Below, piece after piece: positions 35,969 to 45,027 of a stretch of 64,000 bases of DNA. Source of the stretch: Gottschalkiaceae bacterium SANA (GTDB lineage: Bacteria; Bacillota; Clostridia; Tissierellales; GPF-1); NCBI GenBank assembly GCA_036323355.1, contig AP028876.1:2418001-2482000 (forward strand). The letters run 5' to 3'. A program made the position numbers and the translations under genes. The notes beneath the pieces were generated by a model. It made no database searches. It had not been told where the DNA came from and saw only the letters and a list, made by a program, of their open reading frames with translations. Position 1 is the stretch's first letter, and every line of letters begins with the position of its first letter.

Positions 35969-36352
35969 TTACTCTTTTGCTATCTCAAAAAGAAAAACTT
36001 GCAACTGTACTACTGCAACTTCAAGCATTTCACTAATCGCCTGTTCAGTCACAAACAACTTCACTATACTCGAGATCATCGAGTACGCCTTCCACAAAAC
36101 ATAATTGTATTTAATCTTCCCAGTTCCGGATCCGTAAATCTACTCGGCCTCAATCACCAAAGAGAGCAGGATCTTCTTCACCACTCCAATCTGCCCCATG
36201 TTAATTAGTATCAGAAGTACACTTATGAATATGCCTGTAGCAACCACATTCATGGCCACCGGCATGGGAATCACTTCTTGGATCCCCAAAATCAAAACTC
36301 CCAGCAGAACTACTGCCAGGAGCAACATCAAACCTTTAATTATTTTTTTCAT
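35969..36352 (-). pseudogene. LLH-type holin with one nonsense codon
   Basis: Homologous over its whole length to the holin at 42109-42501. The frame starts MKKIIKGL at 36352 behind GAGGAGG, but the codon after LVIEAE is TAG where the intact gene has CAG. The frame reopens and runs to TAA at 35969, so a single point change inactivates it. Confidence 0.85.
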
Positions 36353-36701
36353 TCTTCTCATCCTCCTCTGCATATCGCGCAAGAACTGTAAGAATCAACC
36401 ATGTTGGTGATGGCTTTACACCAGTTCACTTTCCGCATTCCACTTAGCTAGATCATTTAAATCCCTCGCACGGCCAATTCCTTCCAGCACAACACCCACT
36501 AAGGCGGCGGGTATCTCTCGTTGGATCCGTGCTCAGCGCATCGATGCGCTGCTGAATCAAGTGCCTCTTCCGTGAACTCCCCAGTCCAATTCTTATAGCG
36601 CATCTTTATCCCAAAGGCATAATCGCTTGGATAATGAGGATAGTTGACTAATTGAATGCTTGGTGTAGGTCTTTAATCCCAGATGATAAGCAAGATCCGT
36701 T
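36336..36701 (-). pseudogene. endolysin 3' remnant (amidase)
   Basis: Nucleotide similarity to the C-terminal two thirds of the amidase at 42485-43225, with several frameshifts and small deletions. It ends abruptly near 36701, where recombinase sequence begins. This is the junction left by loss of the head, tail and packaging genes. Confidence 0.75.
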
Positions 36702-36705
36702 TTTG

Positions 36706-37127
36706 TAATGCAAATAAAAATGGTACCCGATTATTTCTCATTGAATGAATACTTAATCGAACACCATACTTTTCTCCAGCTCCTATGATGATCTAATAGG
36801 CACGTTGCCTGCTGATCAAATTATCGTCATTCTCCCTAGACTGAGTCAAATAGTCTTCATTATCCTTTCCTGAAACATAACTTGCAATCTCTCGCTTCAA
36901 TTCAGGATTGATTATGATCATCCGGAGGTTCCCCGTCTTCTGTTCTGTCACCATGAAGTAATCCCGGTCCTTACATCCGAGACCTTCAGCTTCAGTTTAT
37001 CGCTAATCCGAAGTCTGTAATAGATCCCCAGCAAGAAAAGAATATAATACCGATCTCTCTGCAGTTTCAAATATTGAATTATGTCTTTCAGTACCCGCTT
37101 GTCACAGATTTAATTTGCCGCTACCAT
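36706..37127 (-). pseudogene. tyrosine recombinase remnant, sister of 58587-59138
   Basis: Clear similarity along its length to the intact recombinase. It starts ATG GTA GCG GCA AAT then TAA, so the sixth codon is a stop, and later frameshifts disrupt it. The catalytic HxxR and Tyr end is truncated by the deletion junction. Confidence 0.8.
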
Positions 37128-38614: not shown

Positions 38615-38653
38615 GTGTTACTCAGAAGTGTTACTCAGAAGTGTTACTCAGAA
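38615..38653. repeat. three 13-bp tandem repeats in a terminator loop
   Basis: GTGTTACTCAGAA occurs three times without spacer inside the hairpin that precedes the HTH remnant. The homologous hairpin at 61497-61531 has one related copy, so the unit was amplified in the remnant. Confidence 0.85.
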
Positions 38654-38779
38654 GTGTCCACCAGTATGTCCGGTAGGGTTGCTATATTTCTTTCTTTTCC
38701 TTGAGTTGCAGATTAAAACTCAAACATTCATAGGGAGGCTACTTTAAGGTTCTTGAAACAAAACCTAAAGTGGAATCCG

Positions 38780-39005
38780 CAAGGGTCCAATTGCGAAGAA
38801 GATTCTACTCTTTTTCGATGAGCTTAAAATGACCCACAGACCACATGACACACGCCACACAAGCATTTCCACGCTCATTATGGCAAACGTGAAACCCAAC
38901 TACCCTCAAAATGAAATTGGCTATACCAACGCAATGAGACTCACTGAGAGGGTCTATGCCCACTTCGAAATTCAACCGCTGCTGGAAGCCATTGACTCCA
39001 TTTGA
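38780..39005 (+). pseudogene. C-terminal fragment of a phage integrase
   Basis: The plus strand encodes LFFDELKMTHRPHDTRHTSIS ... TERVYAHFEIQPLLEAIDSI then TGA. This is the end of a tyrosine integrase with the catalytic RH pair and the Tyr nucleophile. Part of the segment around the GH motif is lost and no N-terminal two thirds exist. It points to the right end of remnant A, next to an attachment site. Confidence 0.75.
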
Positions 39006-39170: not shown

Positions 39171-39281
39171 TATATTACGTGTATATTGTTGTAATTTACT
39201 TCAAGCATAGCCAATCAATAAATGGATGAAATTTCGGCTATCTATTCGGCTATATAATGGAAGGAATCTTTTCATTTATTA

Positions 39282-40088
39282 TCAGAACAGCATCTTGATC
39301 TGTGCCGGCTCATAATTGGTTATGATTAATTCCTTCACCTTGCCGCAGGCATCTTTATCTCTACTGATCGAATAAACCGTATTTACTTCTTCGATGTTTG
39401 CCCAGGAATACCATTCACGAACCTCAGGATGATCATTGATGGTCACCAGGAACTTTCCTTTTATTCCCTTTAGACAATCCACTAACCGCATCTGATCTTT
39501 TAACGTAAACTCTGATTCATACCCTGCAGTTTCATAGTATGGCGGATCACAAAAGAAAAAAGACTTCGGGCGATCATATTTTGGGATCAGCTCCTCGAAG
39601 TCCAAATTCTCAACATAGGTATTCCTCAAGCGCTTCTGAATCTCCAAAAGATCCCTTTCACCAAATACGATCCCTCGCGGCTTTGTTGATGTCCCGTATC
39701 CATAGTTTCCACCTTTGGCCGCGAAGCTTTGACTATTCAAGTAGATGAATCGGATCGCTCGTTGAATCTCGGTCAACACTTTTGGATCCGCATGCTTATA
39801 GTATTCAAATTCATCTCTGCAGCTTAATTCGTACTGAAGCATTCTTTGCAGCTCGCTCGCATGATGTTTCATCATCCGGAAGAGATTCACCAACTCTCCT
39901 TCCACATCATTTATAACCTCAACCTTGCTGGGCTCTTTCCCAAAATACACCCAACCAGCTCCAAAGAATGTTTCAACATAGCAGGTATGCTCTGGCAACC
40001 TGCTGATAATTTCTTTCCTTAATTTTGATTTCCCACCCATCCGAGAGATAGGTGGATTCATATTGTTATAATGGTTTGCTTTAATCAC
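39282..40088 (-). CDS. dam: D12-class DNA N6-adenine methyltransferase
   Basis: A protein of about 268 residues: PPISRMGGKSKLRKEI (AdoMet motif I region), YVETFFGAGWVYFG, and the catalytic DPPYYET motif near residue 185. Methylates adenine in a short site, probably to protect phage DNA or tune transcription. GTG start at 40088; a later ATG (MNPPIS) is possible. Last gene of the prophage B late region. Confidence 0.9.
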   Translation of the reverse strand: MIKANHYNNMNPPISRMGGKSKLRKEIISRLPEHTCYVETFFGAGWVYFGKEPSKVEVINDVEGELVNLFRMMKHHASELQRMLQYELSCRDEFEYYKHADPKVLTEIQRAIRFIYLNSQSFAAKGGNYGYGTSTKPRGIVFGERDLLEIQKRLRNTYVENLDFEELIPKYDRPKSFFFCDPPYYETAGYESEFTLKDQMRLVDCLKGIKGKFLVTINDHPEVREWYSWANIEEVNTVYSISRDKDACGKVKELIITNYEPAQIKMLF

Positions 40089-40170
40089 CCTTTCTTTACA
40101 CTAAAAGAAGGCGCTACAACGCACCTTCAAAATTTGGCTTTCATTTAGTCAACTTACGCTCAACCGTTAC

Positions 40171-41052
40171 TCAAAATGTATTTGTAATAGTATCGATGGA
40201 TAGTCCGTTGGAAAATATAAAATATACAATAATAGTCGCTGTAATACTAAATAGAGTTCCAAGCAAATAGTACTCTGCAAATTCTTGTTCATGTACAATT
40301 CTATCATACCTCGTTATCGATTTTGCAGCAAATATAAACCCAATTGCAGAATACTGGTTAGCCATTAATAACAAAAAAACCAGTAATCTCTCCAAATTTC
40401 CAATACTTCTACCTGCATTCCTATCAATAACTTTTTCATTTTTACTTTGTTCAATTTCATTTTCTTTTTGTTTAATTTCTGGTTTATATTCTTTAATAAT
40501 TGTATTGAAAGTTATATTGGTTGGTTTAAATATAATTAATAAACCCGTTAGCATACGTATACCAATTTCTATTTCTTCTGGTATAAAAAACGAATACCCA
40601 GACTTTATAACCTTCAAAATCACTAGAATAATTACAACGATATGTAATAGCTGATCAACCACATATACATATGGTTTAATCTGCTCTTTATAACCTTCCT
40701 TTATTTTCTTTTGAGATATTTCGGTTCTTTTATGATTCATTGTTTCTTTCTTAGATTTTTTCTTAACAAATAGGATAGACGCCTCATATTTTACCGCATC
40801 AATAAAAAAATGCAGAACTGAAAATATCAAAGCATATAGTATTACCACTTTCATCTCTAATCTATAAGTAATAATATGTGAAATTAACTTTATGCTTAAC
40901 ACAATTATAAACATCGCTAATGAGTACAGCAAACTATGCTCTACAACACCCAAAAAAAATTCATCTTTATAATCTGCCAATTTTTGAGACTGAAAATAAT
41001 AGTCTCCAAGAACATGTCCAATTATAGCTATGAGGAACAAATTATAACTCAT
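40171..41052 (-). CDS. DUF3307 membrane protein, partner of SatD
   Basis: A 293-residue membrane protein. The N-terminus has GHVLGDYYFQSQKLADYK, the DUF3307 signature, and about seven hydrophobic segments follow, with a charged cytoplasmic loop (EYKPEIKQKENEIEQSKNEKV). DUF3307 genes are regularly next to SatD genes; here the reading frames overlap by 11 bases. Function unknown. AT-rich. Confidence 0.85.
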   Translation of the reverse strand: MSYNLFLIAIIGHVLGDYYFQSQKLADYKDEFFLGVVEHSLLYSLAMFIIVLSIKLISHIITYRLEMKVVILYALIFSVLHFFIDAVKYEASILFVKKKSKKETMNHKRTEISQKKIKEGYKEQIKPYVYVVDQLLHIVVIILVILKVIKSGYSFFIPEEIEIGIRMLTGLLIIFKPTNITFNTIIKEYKPEIKQKENEIEQSKNEKVIDRNAGRSIGNLERLLVFLLLMANQYSAIGFIFAAKSITRYDRIVHEQEFAEYYLLGTLFSITATIIVYFIFSNGLSIDTITNTF

Positions 41053-41716
41053 TTTGATCCTCCCAAACGTCCATAATTATTTCTTGAAGAGTTTCTTTTG
41101 CATTTCTATAAGAAAAATAATTACTAGTTACAAGTCTCCTTTGAATGCTTGATTGTGTGACCTGCAATTTCTGAGCGATTTCTCGCTGAGTCTGATCCGT
41201 AAATTCCATTTCATTTATCACTTCAAACTGCTTTTCCGACCATTCATTTTCTATCACATTGCACAGAGATATTGCTGTATTAATAGCTGTATATAGAGCT
41301 CGATTTCCATTCGTTTGTCCATAAATTAGAATATCCCTTGTTACACTTTCTTTCTTATTTCGTTTTTGCTCTTCTTTAATATTTTCGATTGCTTTTCTCG
41401 CAACATGATACGCTGGTCCATCCGAACCAATTGCCTGGGCTCTTATCTCCGTTTGCATTTCACCAAACCCAACTCCAAACCGAATATTACTCCATTCAAA
41501 ATTCATCTTTATATAGTCTATAATCTTTAACAAATGAATTGGTGTATTTAGAAGTCCCTGAAACTCATCACCTAATGTAATGATAAATTTAGATTCAATA
41601 TCTTCACTGAATATACTATTCACATCATTCAAGATATTATTCAACTTTACTTGAGCTTCTGATCTCTCCACTATCGTTCTAGATTTCACAATGTCGCCAA
41701 TTATTGCACAATACAT
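41042..41716 (-). CDS. SatD-family protein with C-terminal HTH
   Basis: A 224-residue SatD-like protein: MYCAIIGDIVKSRTI at the start and FIITLGDEFQGLL around residue 50, resembling a nucleotidyl-cyclase-like fold. The C-terminal 70 residues carry a helix-turn-helix (DQTQREIAQKLQVTQSSIQRRL). GGAGGTGATTCT precedes the ATG. Behind it are a near-perfect promoter and a nine-unit repeat array, so the HTH may bind that array. Biochemical function of SatD is not established. Confidence 0.88.
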   Translation of the reverse strand: MYCAIIGDIVKSRTIVERSEAQVKLNNILNDVNSIFSEDIESKFIITLGDEFQGLLNTPIHLLKIIDYIKMNFEWSNIRFGVGFGEMQTEIRAQAIGSDGPAYHVARKAIENIKEEQKRNKKESVTRDILIYGQTNGNRALYTAINTAISLCNVIENEWSEKQFEVINEMEFTDQTQREIAQKLQVTQSSIQRRLVTSNYFSYRNAKETLQEIIMDVWEDQNEL

Positions 41717-41736
41717 AGAATCACCTCCATATGAAA

Positions 41737-41765
41737 ATTATAACTATATTTCCATGCATCGTCAA
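41737..41765 (-). promoter_or_regulatory. near-consensus promoter of satD-DUF3307
   Basis: On minus TTGACG (41765-41760) and TATAAT (41742-41737), 17-base spacer. The spacer itself contains ATGCAT, the half-site core of the repeat array that starts 5 bases upstream of the -35. Confidence 0.8.
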
Positions 41766-41769
41766 TTTT

Positions 41770-42022
41770 GATGCATCTACAACTGCATCACGGGCAATGA
41801 TGCATCTACAACTGCATCACGGACAATGATGCATCTACAACTGCATCACGGACAATGATGCATCTACAACTGCATCACGGGCAATGATGCATCTACAACT
41901 GCATCACGGGCAATGATGCATCTGCAACTGCATCACGGGCAATGATGCATCTACAACTGCATCACGGGCAATGATGCATCTACAACTGCATCACGGGCAA
42001 TGATGCGTCTACAACTGCATCA
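41770..42022. repeat. tandem array of 29-bp palindromic repeats upstream of satD
   Basis: Eight full units and a ninth partial one, with no spacers. Each unit is TGATGCA-N8-TGCATCA followed by about seven bases (CGGGCAA or CGGACAA). Only a few single-base differences separate the units. The regular 29-base phasing, the inverted repeat inside each unit and the position just upstream of a promoter suggest a protein-binding array. It is not a CRISPR, as unique spacers are absent. The remaining bases of the gap 42023-42108 hold an AT-rich palindrome. Confidence 0.9.
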
Positions 42023-42070
42023 TCACCTATGATCCATCCGAAAAAAATTAATAATAATAATATATTTACA

Positions 42071-42098
42071 TTATATTACATAACTATATGTAATATAA
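42071..42098. terminator. AT-rich palindrome after the lysis genes
   Basis: TTATATTACATA and TATGTAATATAA form a perfect 12-base stem with a four-base loop, 11 bases after the holin stop codon. No strict T tract follows, so it is a probable but not certain terminator for the late transcript. Confidence 0.5.
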
Positions 42099-42108
42099 GA
42101 TCACAATC

Positions 42109-42501
42109 TCAGCTATAAAAATTTTTTGCTGTCTCAGAAAGAAAAATCTGCAGTTGATCAACCGCCGTTTCTAGCATCTTACTAATCGTCTGTTCGGTTA
42201 CAAATAACTTCATCACGCTCGGAATCATCGAATACGCCTTCCCCAACACATAATTGTATTTCATCTTCCCTGTTCCGGATCCATAGATTTGCTCCGCTTC
42301 AATCACCAATGAAAGCAGGATCTTCTTCACCACTTCGACCTGCCCCATGTAGGTTAACACCAAGAGCACCCCAATGAATACGCCTACCGCCACCACATTT
42401 ATGGCCATCGGCATCGGCATCACTTCCTGGATCCCCAAAAGTAAAACTCCCAGCAGGACAACTACCAAGACCACCATCAATCCCTTAATTGTTTTTTTCA
42501 T
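42109..42501 (-). CDS. phage holin, LLH-like
   Basis: A 130-residue protein with two closely spaced hydrophobic segments (GLMVVLVVVLLGVLLLGIQ and MAINVVAVGVFIGVLLVLTYMG), then a basic/amphipathic C-terminal domain (VIEAEQIYGSGTGKMKYNYVLGKAYSMIP) typical of LLH-type holins. Start MKKTIKGL at 42501 follows GAGGAGG and overlaps the endolysin stop by 17 bases. Confidence 0.8.
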   Translation of the reverse strand: MKKTIKGLMVVLVVVLLGVLLLGIQEVMPMPMAINVVAVGVFIGVLLVLTYMGQVEVVKKILLSLVIEAEQIYGSGTGKMKYNYVLGKAYSMIPSVMKLFVTEQTISKMLETAVDQLQIFLSETAKNFYS

Positions 42502-43225
42502 TCTTCTCATCCTCCTCTGCATATCGCGCAAGAACTGTAAGCATCAACCATGTTGGTGCCGGCTTTGCCAGTTCATCTTCCCGATTCCACTTATCTGGAT
42601 CATTCAAGATCCCTCGTTCACTCAGTTCTTTCACGGCCTTTCGACCAAGTTCTCTTTGCCACTTCTCAAGTTGTTTCGGCATCACAATCTCCTTTACTCT
42701 CTCTTTGAATTCTTGAAACGCCACCGGCTTCTTCACAAACCACCGCGGGCATTCCTTCCACCCCACCACTTGCTGATGGGTCCAGATATCACGAATCGGA
42801 TCCAAATCATACTTCAGACAAAGATCTGCACATCGATGCGCTGCGGAATCCAACGTTTCTTCCGTAAACTCCCCAGTCCAATCCTTATGGCAAAACTCAA
42901 GCCCATAGGTATAATCGTTTGGATATGAGGATAGCCGACTAAGCGCACGCCTGGTGTATTTCTTCGATCCCACATGATAGGCAAGCTCGGCTTCCGGAAT
43001 GCAGATCAGCCGCTCTCCGTTGATCCCAATGATCTCATGAGCAGATCCAAAGCCATCCTTTCCCAGCTTTCGATTCTCAAAGTAATCCCGGTTCCCTCTC
43101 GGCGTTGAGCCGGGGTTAGCAACCCAATGGACCACTAACCCCCTCATGCCTTTTAAACGCCTACCTGGGCGGGAATATCGATTCTGAGTAATAAGCTTCA
43201 CACTTGTCTTATACTCGGTTTTCAT
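42485..43225 (-). CDS. N-acetylmuramoyl-L-alanine amidase endolysin
   Basis: A 246-residue Amidase_2/PGRP enzyme. Zinc ligands are expected at GLVVHWVANPGS (His), LEFCHKDWTG and the C-terminal IWTHQQVVGWKECPRW. It cuts the peptidoglycan stem peptide for lysis. Start MKTEYK at 43225 has GGGAGG nine bases upstream. No separate cell-wall-binding repeats are seen; the C-terminal 80 residues may serve. Confidence 0.9.
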   Translation of the reverse strand: MKTEYKTSVKLITQNRYSRPGRRLKGMRGLVVHWVANPGSTPRGNRDYFENRKLGKDGFGSAHEIIGINGERLICIPEAELAYHVGSKKYTRRALSRLSSYPNDYTYGLEFCHKDWTGEFTEETLDSAAHRCADLCLKYDLDPIRDIWTHQQVVGWKECPRWFVKKPVAFQEFKERVKEIVMPKQLEKWQRELGRKAVKELSERGILNDPDKWNREDELAKPAPTWLMLTVLARYAEEDEKNEKNN

Positions 43226-43739
43226 AATCTTCATCCTCCCTGCCACTTCCATGGTACTCATCAATCTCAGTCTCTAAGATCTGCCGTTGCTTTCTCTTCA
43301 CCCAAAAAAGAAGCCATCCAAGATCAGCTCCTCCATCTACTAAATTTTCAACAACCGACTGCCCTTCCCGAAGGAACATCACTCCATAAACCACAGTGGC
43401 AAAGAAGATCCCCATCTCCTTCAGGGGAGCTACCCGGTAACTAAGTCCCGCTAGGATCATGATACAAAGGTAAGAAAATAGCTTCACCTTAGTCTTGTCC
43501 CAAAGGGTCTTTGAATATATTGCTCTCGTTTTCACAGCTTCCCTGTACCCTTTGTTCTGCTTGGCCAAGGACCAAAACTTCGTCAGGATATCTAGAACCA
43601 TAGCAACCCCCACAGCAACAATGCTGGTGAAAAATGCTTGATCCGGAAAGAGTAAATAACTGATCGCAGAAAGGGCAAACCCAATCGCCGGGTTGGATCC
43701 ATCTAGTACCTTTGAAAGGTATTCCTGTAATTGTGTCAT
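43209..43739 (-). CDS. phage holin, Cph1/holin-4 type
   Basis: A 176-residue protein with three to four hydrophobic segments (AIGFALSAISYLLFPD, TSIVAVGVAMVLDILTKFW, LFSYLCIMILAGLSY, MGIFFATVVYGVMFLREG). The DILTKFW and EGQSVVENL features are those of toxin-secretion/phage-lysis holins. Second holin of the cassette, so one may act as antiholin. Confidence 0.85.
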   Translation of the reverse strand: MTQLQEYLSKVLDGSNPAIGFALSAISYLLFPDQAFFTSIVAVGVAMVLDILTKFWSLAKQNKGYREAVKTRAIYSKTLWDKTKVKLFSYLCIMILAGLSYRVAPLKEMGIFFATVVYGVMFLREGQSVVENLVDGGADLGWLLFWVKRKQRQILETEIDEYHGSGREDEDYENRV

Positions 43740-43841
43740 CTATCCCTCCTGTACGATTGAATCTTTCTCTTCCTGGGTAATCCAGCCGGCTTCAACTGCC
43801 CGGTCAAGAAAAGCCTCATCAATGATATTCCATGCAAACAT
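43740..43841 (-). CDS. XkdX-like small tail-region protein
   Basis: A 33-residue protein (MFAWNIIDEAFLDRAVEAGW, then ITQEEKDSIVQEG). The FV/AVEAGWIT..E pattern is that of XkdX-type proteins found between tail fibre and holin genes. An in-frame GTG six codons upstream could also be used. Confidence 0.65.
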   Translation of the reverse strand: MFAWNIIDEAFLDRAVEAGWITQEEKDSIVQEG

Positions 43842-43866
43842 TCGCCCCAAATCACTCACCGAATAT

Positions 43867-44178
43867 CTAGACACCAGGATCCACCTCCTGACTCTTCAGC
43901 GTTTCTTCTAAGTCACGCTGCACTTGCTTCTGAAGAAGAAAATCAAGCTTCTCTTCCACACGCTGAAGGGGATCGACTCCACCAGAAGGTCCATCTTCAT
44001 TTGAAAGGCCTTTCCCTTCCGCATCGACATATTCTCCTCGAGTGAGGTCAAATTGATAGGTGATGCCAGCAACTACTTTCTCTTGATCTCCGACTTCTGA
44101 TTTTGAAGTCACTTTCTTTCCGCTTCTGGTTGTAAGCTCTTCTATTTGATGAATCTTCCCATTCTCTTCGACATACAT
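43867..44178 (-). CDS. small phage tail-appendage protein
   Basis: A 103-residue acidic protein beginning MYVEENGKIHQIEEL, with a C-terminal predicted coiled coil (LQRVEEKLDFLLQKQVQRDLEET). Start 44178 follows GGGGGGCGAAAT. Position between tail fibre genes and XkdX suggests a distal tail or accessory role. Confidence 0.65.
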   Translation of the reverse strand: MYVEENGKIHQIEELTTRSGKKVTSKSEVGDQEKVVAGITYQFDLTRGEYVDAEGKGLSNEDGPSGGVDPLQRVEEKLDFLLQKQVQRDLEETLKSQEVDPGV

Positions 44179-44191
44179 ATTTCGCCCCCCT

Positions 44192-44581
44192 TTATTCGAG
44201 TAATGCTGTGTATCCTCTGTTCCTTGCAACTGAATTTTTAAAACGATAGGTGATGACGATCGAAGTGTTAAACCTAATAAATAACGGCAAGACACCGCCT
44301 TGTCCACCATAAGTCCCACTATATTTATAGGAGCTTAAAACCTCAGATGTTGAAGCACCTCCATCAACACTGAAGCTGACTCTTGCTTCTTTACTACCAT
44401 CAGAACCACCGTCTGCATGAGCTATAATATTCGTCAAATATCCAGCACCTGTTATCGTTTCTGTATAGCTATACCACAGATTTTTCGTCGTGTTTGCAAT
44501 CTCCACGATCATTTTATTGAGCGGAGTCAAAGCAGACCAATCAATGCCTCTACCAGCTGCTACATTTGTTCCACCAATCAT
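44192..44581 (-). CDS. phage tail appendage protein, unknown
   Basis: A 129-residue glycine/serine-rich beta protein (MIGGTNVAAGRGIDWSALTP ... LPLFIRFNTSIVITYRF). No family recognised; probably part of a fibre or receptor-binding assembly. Start 44581 overlaps the upstream stop (ATGA) and has AGGTGGTG before it. Confidence 0.65.
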   Translation of the reverse strand: MIGGTNVAAGRGIDWSALTPLNKMIVEIANTTKNLWYSYTETITGAGYLTNIIAHADGGSDGSKEARVSFSVDGGASTSEVLSSYKYSGTYGGQGGVLPLFIRFNTSIVITYRFKNSVARNRGYTALLE

Positions 44582-45027
44582 GTGCTCACCACCTTCGAAA
44601 AATAGATTGTCACCTGGATATCTTGGGTTTGATCCTGAGTCGAGTAGATCTTCATGGATCCTGCTAAAGTTTCTGTATGTGTCCAAGAACCTGCAGCCTT
44701 TTCTTTTTCAGTAGGCGTTGCCACCACATCGGCCACCGTCTCTGCATCAATGATCGGATCTGCAATGGTATATTCCCACAGGCTCCCATTCTGCACCCAC
44801 CCGGATGCCAAAATGGTTGCACTCTTTGAGATTGAAACCTTTTTGTCCAGGAACTCCAACTCATCGTCAATCTTTTGCATGTTGCCCACACTCAAAGGGG
44901 TTCCCCCTTGAATCACATTCCCGAATGCCGGTGTCAAGGTAATGGTCCCATCCTCGTTTTCAACCCTTGTAAATCGGTTGGGAAACTCGACCTGACGCTC
45001 TCCCCATGTTGTTTTGTTGTAATTCAT
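44578..45027 (-). CDS. phage tail fibre-like protein
   Basis: A 149-residue protein starting MNYNKTTWGERQVEFPNRFT. Its N-terminus with TLTPAFGNVIQGGTPLSVGNMQKIDDEL is characteristic of fibre proteins of clostridial siphoviruses; the C-terminus is beta-rich. Likely distal tail adhesin. Confidence 0.7.
   Translation of the reverse strand: MNYNKTTWGERQVEFPNRFTRVENEDGTITLTPAFGNVIQGGTPLSVGNMQKIDDELEFLDKKVSISKSATILASGWVQNGSLWEYTIADPIIDAETVADVVATPTEKEKAAGSWTHTETLAGSMKIYSTQDQTQDIQVTIYFSKVVST

Follow-up and report, generated by a model that had tools for sequence, protein, structure and literature searches.

A tandem array of nine palindromes at 29-bp intervals precedes satD and a gene for a DUF3307 membrane protein in the 64,000-nucleotide stretch of DNA analyzed here (hereafter the window). 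We consider it likely, in the absence of binding or expression data, that this array is the operator of a SatD-DUF3307 cassette, where SatD dimers bind cooperatively and repress a probably harmful DUF3307 protein, with a nucleotide as the likely signal. SatD (PF16264) and DUF3307 (PF11750) are an uncharacterized pair, and the two genes in the window match both families above the Pfam cut-offs. The recurring switch before these genes seems to have been previously unnoticed. It brings two unexplained families into one regulated unit with an operator that is variable in sequence and rigid in geometry, which gives them testable functions, namely SatD as a repressor and DUF3307 as a regulated membrane protein.

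Proposed operator array and promoter in the window

The original prediction of a nine-unit array of 29-bp palindromic repeats was confirmed by Tandem Repeats Finder (period exactly 29, 8.8 copies, 97% matches, score 480; the second best of its six rows scored 86), with the start moved from position 41770 to 41769 (Table 1). The motif TGATGCA-N8-TGCATCA, which had been assigned to each unit, is exact in eight of them, and the ninth (at 42001) has a TGATGCG arm instead. In the 3.49-Mb genome, the exact pattern occurs eight times, always within the array, and exact matches to the reversed pattern are absent. When three mismatches were allowed, we found 383 matches in the whole genome for the pattern versus 37 for its reverse. 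Because the dinucleotides of this control differ and sites were available only among the matches listed, no wider regulon is claimed. A CRISPR array was ruled out for these repeats; the units are contiguous, and their linkers are nearly identical and do not form unique spacers.

Table 1. Features of the satD region, given as positions of the window.
Feature	Position	Strand	Evidence
Proposed operator array; 22-bp palindromes TGATGCR-N8-TGCATCA (nine) separated by 7-bp linkers; period 29	41769..42022		Repeat and sequence analysis
Right half-site TGCATCG, in register, within the promoter spacer and adjacent to the -35 hexamer; a half-decayed tenth unit	41755..41761		Sequence
Half-site TGATCCA, degenerate, in register, at distal end of array	42030..42036		Sequence
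satD promoter TTGACG-N17-TATAAT, 11/12 consensus	41737..41765 (-35 41765-41760; -10 41742-41737)	-	Sequence
Shine-Dalgarno-like GGAGGTGAT ahead of satD	41720..41728	-	Sequence
satD, 224 aa: cyclase/palm-like domain (~1-156) and C-terminal HTH (~160-224)	41042..41716	-	Pfam PF16264, AlphaFold, Foldseek, VIA
DUF3307 membrane protein, 293 aa; 11-bp overlap with satD	40171..41052	-	Pfam PF11750, phrog_2470, all-helical model
Exchangeable cassette: array, satD, and DUF3307	40092..42136		Sister-prophage homology stops at both edges

The TTGACG/TATAAT promoter expected beside the array was found on the minus strand, and transcription of satD and DUF3307 reads leftward from it; its -35 hexamer lies 3 bases beyond the array end, rather than 5 as had been counted. 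The additional ATGCAT core noted in the promoter spacer is also present and falls exactly in the 29-bp register. The proposal that the sites lie on one face of the DNA was wrong, as 29 bp falls well short of 31.5 bp. At 10.5 bp per turn, each unit spans 2.76 turns and is rotated by about -86 degrees relative to the previous one, such that the units do not share one face. As palindromes can fold as RNA, the repeats might also be transcribed hairpins that act as a terminator or attenuator. We give this reading almost no credence, as the satD promoter is downstream of the array, no Rfam family was found in positions 41500-42600, the arm sequence is constant between units, and mismatches between arms have no clear G-U preference (GT 21, AC 14, and AA 26).

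The satD product matched PF16264 with an E-value of 4.4e-45 (154.3 bits; curated cut-off 29), and the product of the gene that follows matched PF11750 with an E-value of 3.7e-14 (53.3 bits; curated cut-off 23). The latter also matched phrog_2470, a "moron" membrane protein (E 2.6e-12); the sole other Pfam family listed for it was a sub-threshold match to TctB.

Recurrence of the 28/29-bp geometry among SatD loci

Both SatD and DUF3307 are widespread, and SatD was found in 19 of 150 order-relative genomes, 28 of 391 genomes of the class, and 69 of 398 sampled genomes of the phylum (the window's own genome is included in each set). Not every match became a locus; genome contigs provided 10 loci, and five of 10 plasmid records were used. 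ORFs without the N-terminal part of the SatD model were excluded, and the 138 ORFs with it were reduced to 118 by dropping short or similar upstream regions. The window locus (L026) is itself one of these 118.

Exact 7-mer direct repeats, searched without any sequence prior, were found upstream of satD at a lag of 29 bp in 31 of the 118 loci and at lags of 28 and 58 bp in 13 loci each; other lags mostly gave 0-5. In a first control set, lags 28 and 29 occurred in 12 and 10 of 201 regions, respectively (mean 3.3 per lag), and this excess is probably due to regions that hold arrays downstream of satD. A later control omitted the whole satD-DUF3307 block. The control ORFs were mechanically defined ORFs of at least 150 aa.

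Paired similar 22-bp palindromes at a lag of 28 or 29 bp (score >=29) were found before satD or DUF3307 in 47 of the 118 loci, compared with only one of 158 control upstream regions from the same loci (Fisher 2e-19) and none of 354 mononucleotide shuffles (maximum score 28). At a laxer score of 27, the counts were 62/118 and 9/158. In these comparisons, the 31 loci with a gap between the two genes were scanned over two regions, and the controls over one 200-bp region each. The comparison among lags is the cleanest control because it uses the same DNA: 19 loci have such pairs at lag 28, 30 loci at lag 29, and 0-2 loci at each remaining lag between 22 and 45. The original prediction had suggested a multi-site regulatory array of the SatD/DUF3307 system, to be refuted if no comparable repeats occurred near other satD genes and neither SatD nor any phage regulator bound them. 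Such repeats do occur, and the suggestion is strongly supported by these counts, by the array position before a separate DUF3307 gene, and by the tracking between half-sites and the SatD HTH described below.

The 47 positive loci include one on a haloarchaeal plasmid (L141) and others on Sphingomonas and Agrobacterium plasmids (L143 and L144); the spacing of 28-29 bases is thus shared by numerous bacteria and also occurs in at least one archaeon. Among the relatives found, L005 is the closest (51% identity) and has tandem TGATGCR-N8-TGCATCA palindromes with diverged centers and linkers, ending at TTGACT/TATAAT. The other 71 loci are below the threshold; by eye, some have only single palindromes and others have none. 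A gap scan based on single palindromes was uninformative, with nearly all gaps scoring above the shuffles. Upstream of satD in six loci (L020-L023, L050, and L052), TTATAACC/GAATA palindromes were seen by eye near the -10 element, below the array threshold. They may be lone operators of the array type.

Between neighboring units at lag 29 (29 loci, window excluded), identity is 0.66-1.0 at the outer seven positions of the two arms (at least 0.83 for nine of the 14 positions), compared with 0.48-0.79 for the centers and 0.14-0.45 for the following 7 bp. The contrast is weaker at lag 28 (17 loci; arms 0.65-1.0 vs. centers 0.53-0.82). The 22-bp segments were picked by identity and palindromy, and only the following bases were unselected; in two-unit loci, the following 7-bp stretches are not both linkers. 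When each locus was scored with its own half-site, the window had nine operators, the highest count of the 47 loci, and the other 46 had 2-5. The unit expansion in the window is recent, since the nine units are almost identical, and together with the high count this would fit a functionless tandem repeat that grew by slippage. We regard such neutral growth as a very improbable explanation: other loci keep the arms and the period while the centers and following bases differ, and the enrichment is lag-specific across unrelated sequences.

Position of the array relative to satD and DUF3307

In 92 of the 118 loci, DUF3307 is encoded 3' of satD in the same orientation and no more than 600 bp away; it overlaps or abuts satD (<40 bp) in 61 of these and follows a 40-600-bp gap in 31. 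It is also annotated beside SatD on two haloarchaeal plasmids. Based on exact 7-mer repeats, the array is upstream of satD in 28 of the abutting loci and between the genes in none; for the gapped loci, it is in the gap in 17 (one also upstream), only upstream in seven, and in neither place in seven. At score >=29, the abutting loci have 22 arrays, all upstream of satD, although a gap of <40 bp could hardly hold one. The gapped loci have 13 in the gap directly before DUF3307, five only before satD, and 13 with neither. For example, L009 has four 29-bp units inside its 204-bp gap. The difference between the two groups (Fisher 7e-7) is exaggerated, since the abutting genes hardly have space for an array between them. 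In most cases, the array therefore lies before the transcription unit that carries DUF3307.

Of the short SatD ORFs, which number 12, L012 is short only because its contig ends, and the other 11 are palm-only genes without an HTH. As an exception to the arrangement above, six of these 11 have an array upstream though DUF3307 is outside their unit; an array also precedes L012. In nine of the 11, DUF3307 is on the opposite strand close to where the short gene ends, usually with its own second, long SatD, and this separate long SatD is presumed to be the reader of the array at palm-only loci. Two SatDs, one palm-only (~120-135 aa) and one long, were observed in L028, L030, L061, and L130-L132, where DUF3307 is often tail to tail with the short gene. 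L054 and L010 encode a 720-732-aa protein with a SatD start followed by repeats that, by eye, are tetratricopeptide-like; L054 ends within the gene.

Operator position varies: in the window and in L005, the operators are upstream of the -35 hexamer; in others (e.g., L025, by eye), they cover the presumed -35; and in L089, L107, L060, and L115, they are 3-18 nt upstream of the assigned start codon. We favor cooperative repression by SatD because a repressor tolerates such a spread from upstream of the -35 to the start codon and an activator would not. Evidence against repression is that the full operators in the window and L005 end upstream of the -35, which is also a position for an activator, with the last one only 3 bp from a near-consensus -35 hexamer in both. 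It is possible, though unlikely, that the array is an upstream activating sequence, ending just before the -35, through which the promoter is activated by SatD or a partner. The window promoter already matches the consensus at 11 of 12 positions and has an in-register half-site inside it, and the sites that overlap the presumed -35 or sit next to the start codon elsewhere are unsuited for activation.

Prophage context and the exchangeable cassette

This region of the window is the end of a prophage late operon (terminase, portal, capsid, tape measure, and amidase), with a holin match just below its cut-off; the ORFs scanned near the array include lysis genes, satD, DUF3307, and a Dam methylase gene. 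The same genome carries a sister prophage with 93.5% identity over positions 42137-45000 of the window and 86% over 39248-40091 (the Dam methylase region). At the site of the cassette (L181:2153-3838), this prophage has a different gene, a 562-aa ORF that replaces the array, satD, and DUF3307. Because the homology breaks at both edges, this comparison indicates that the array, satD, and DUF3307 are one exchangeable cassette of ~2.05 kb, and that the array travels with satD rather than with the phage. In a third prophage, which belongs to a different species of the genus, the shared part covers the lysis cassette up to 42148, and other genes follow. The site between the lysis genes and the Dam methylase gene looks like a cargo hotspot. 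The 562-aa ORF has no PADLOC match; by eye, its N-terminus is hydrophobic.

Although the cassette in the window ends a prophage late region, no phage record with SatD was found. A tblastn search (E 1e-5) of INPHARED phages gave no SatD, and IMG/VR had neither SatD nor an exact match to the two-unit array pattern. The window has no tRNA. Beyond the Dam gene, positions 38615-38657 are a perfect 13-bp tandem repeat of 3.3 copies (GTGTTACTCAGAA), and a short ORF at 38829-39005 looks, by eye, like the end part of a tyrosine integrase, with no Pfam match at E 0.01. Positions 36001-36715 have ~80-84% identity to the sister prophage's amidase region and represent a second partial lysis cassette beside that of the window.

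Predicted structures of SatD and DUF3307

In the AlphaFold model of SatD (pLDDT 93.4), residues 1-156 resemble the class III cyclase Rv1900c (1ybt; Foldseek E 1.2e-4, TMq 0.39), and the Panoptes mCpol OptS (9pd0) is the fourth-ranked Foldseek match (E 5.8e-4). VIA aligned the model with GTP cyclohydrolase III 2qv6 (Z 11.9, rmsd 2.7, 113 aligned), guanylate cyclase 3et6 (Z 10.2, rmsd 3.7, 131 aligned), type III-B effector 9l7d (Z 10.1, rmsd 4.9, 154 aligned), and GGDEF 8wcn (Z 10.0, rmsd 2.6, 111 aligned). The modeled N-terminus meets the cyclase homology fold; these matches define a fold superfamily rather than a class. Residues D8, S12, G49-D50-E51, R107, and others are invariant in all 36 sequences compared. 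Judged from position alone, without superposition, D8 and D50 may be equivalent to the two metal-ligand aspartates of class III cyclases. The predicted C-terminal HTH was borne out by the model, with only sub-threshold family matches. Based on sequence alone, SatD had no PDB match, and a profile search gave mostly weak HTH matches (e.g., MarR-type repressors and Cro) and a thiamine enzyme at residues 7-95. From the fold and the Panoptes analogy, we infer that the N-terminal domain probably binds or converts a nucleotide; there are no ligand data.

The model of DUF3307 is all-helical (pLDDT 87), with invariant polar residues D17, H81, D85, H137, E221, R222, K244, and R248 (28/28), which suggests that it may be a membrane enzyme or channel. 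It had no meaningful PDB match by structure (best Foldseek E 8.3; best VIA Z 5.7, rmsd 6.8, 119 aligned), and no match was found by sequence either. That the protein is probably harmful when overproduced or active is an inference from the fold, the Panoptes analogy, and the essentiality of satD in S. pyogenes despite its accessory status.

Covariation of half-sites with the SatD HTH and a proposed mechanism

Half-sites differ by clade together with the SatD HTH motif: TGATGCA occurs with QSS[IV]QRR, AGATTCA with QSSV[NS]K, TTGCA with ESAMSRR, CACC with QN[VI]xKRC, and GCAACC with RQSxxK. Across 47 loci, half-site distance is correlated with HTH distance when the N-terminal domain is accounted for (partial Spearman 0.25, permutation p 0.0005), and less clearly with N-terminal distance given the HTH (0.11, p 0.053). 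These 47 loci have a score >=28 and proteins of 200-299 aa, and differ from the 47 with a score >=29. The covariation is moderate; related sequences are not independent, and relatedness was only partly corrected.

SatD binding itself is inferred, and prophages bring their own repressors, such that the reader of the array could be another phage or host regulator (e.g., a prophage repressor, sigma factor, or nucleoid protein). This seems improbable: the geometry follows SatD across bacteria and onto a haloarchaeal plasmid, no exact site is present elsewhere in the genome, the sister prophage lacks both the cassette and the array, and the half-sites track the SatD HTH.

With SatD as the reader, its dimers would recognize the 22-bp palindromes through the C-terminal HTH. 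The 28/29-bp spacing would bring neighboring dimers into contact, which may allow cooperative loading along the array. In the window, loading would extend into the promoter, with the tenth half-site as the point of occlusion. Binding would shut off the transcription unit that carries the polytopic membrane protein DUF3307, and in overlapping satD-DUF3307 operons SatD would also be autoregulated. The nucleotide level may be sensed through the N-terminal domain, loosening or tightening the binding to DNA. SatD would tie a cyclase-like fold directly to transcription control, and its loci offer natural HTH-operator pairs for decoding specificity.

Comparison with known systems

The original work on the sat operon of S. 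mutans belongs to the subscription literature. In the accessible portions of the literature found, SatD is named only for secretion and acid tolerance. Within those portions, no SatD operator or SatD-DUF3307 system is described among the matches listed (including PMC11323703, PMC10326533, PMC8504454, and PMC12657218); subscription papers were mostly outside this scope, hence this is no proof of novelty. In S. pyogenes, satD is reported to be accessory (178 of 249 genomes) yet essential in transposon screens, and to be the single essential accessory gene (PMC11323703). Such a pattern would be expected of a gene that silences a toxic partner, provided that the S. pyogenes gene, which was not compared with SatD of the window, is a true relative.

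Panoptes (OptS mCpol and OptE membrane effector) is likewise a two-gene operon of a palm-fold protein and a membrane protein, and its effector is described as inhibiting growth unless restrained (PMC12657218). SatD differs in having an HTH and an operator array, and no cyclic nucleotide has been shown for it. Membership in Panoptes was rejected, as the criterion of an S-2TM-beta effector OptE is unmet and the partner is DUF3307 by Pfam. Compared with class III adenylyl cyclases (Rv1900c and Ma1120), SatD residues 1-156 have a similar predicted fold with invariant D8 and G49-D50-E51, but are fused to an HTH, and no activity has been shown. Autoregulated repressors of defense and toxin-antitoxin systems (BrxR/CapW and lambda-type operators) have palindromic operators before an operon of regulator and effector, as in the SatD cassette. 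What sets the SatD system apart is its sensor domain, which is cyclase-like, and the fixed 28/29-bp phasing of its 2-9 operators. We tentatively speculate that SatD-DUF3307 may be an undescribed cross-domain signaling or immunity cassette, a transcriptional counterpart of Panoptes. A cyclase-fold nucleotide sensor or synthase would also be the repressor, forming a cooperative filament on the phased array, and loss of the nucleotide signal (e.g., under phage attack) would release the membrane effector.

Among the matches listed for 104 neighbor proteins of 13 SatD loci (25 of 43 families), there are BREX and Wadjet genes; those listed for 118 control proteins of 13 regions (25 of 63 families) include type III CRISPR genes. 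In L165, a Wadjet JetA gene is nearby, and in L009 a type II restriction gene precedes satD. In L146 (9505-12142), SatD and DUF3307 immediately precede the BREX genes brxA and brxB.
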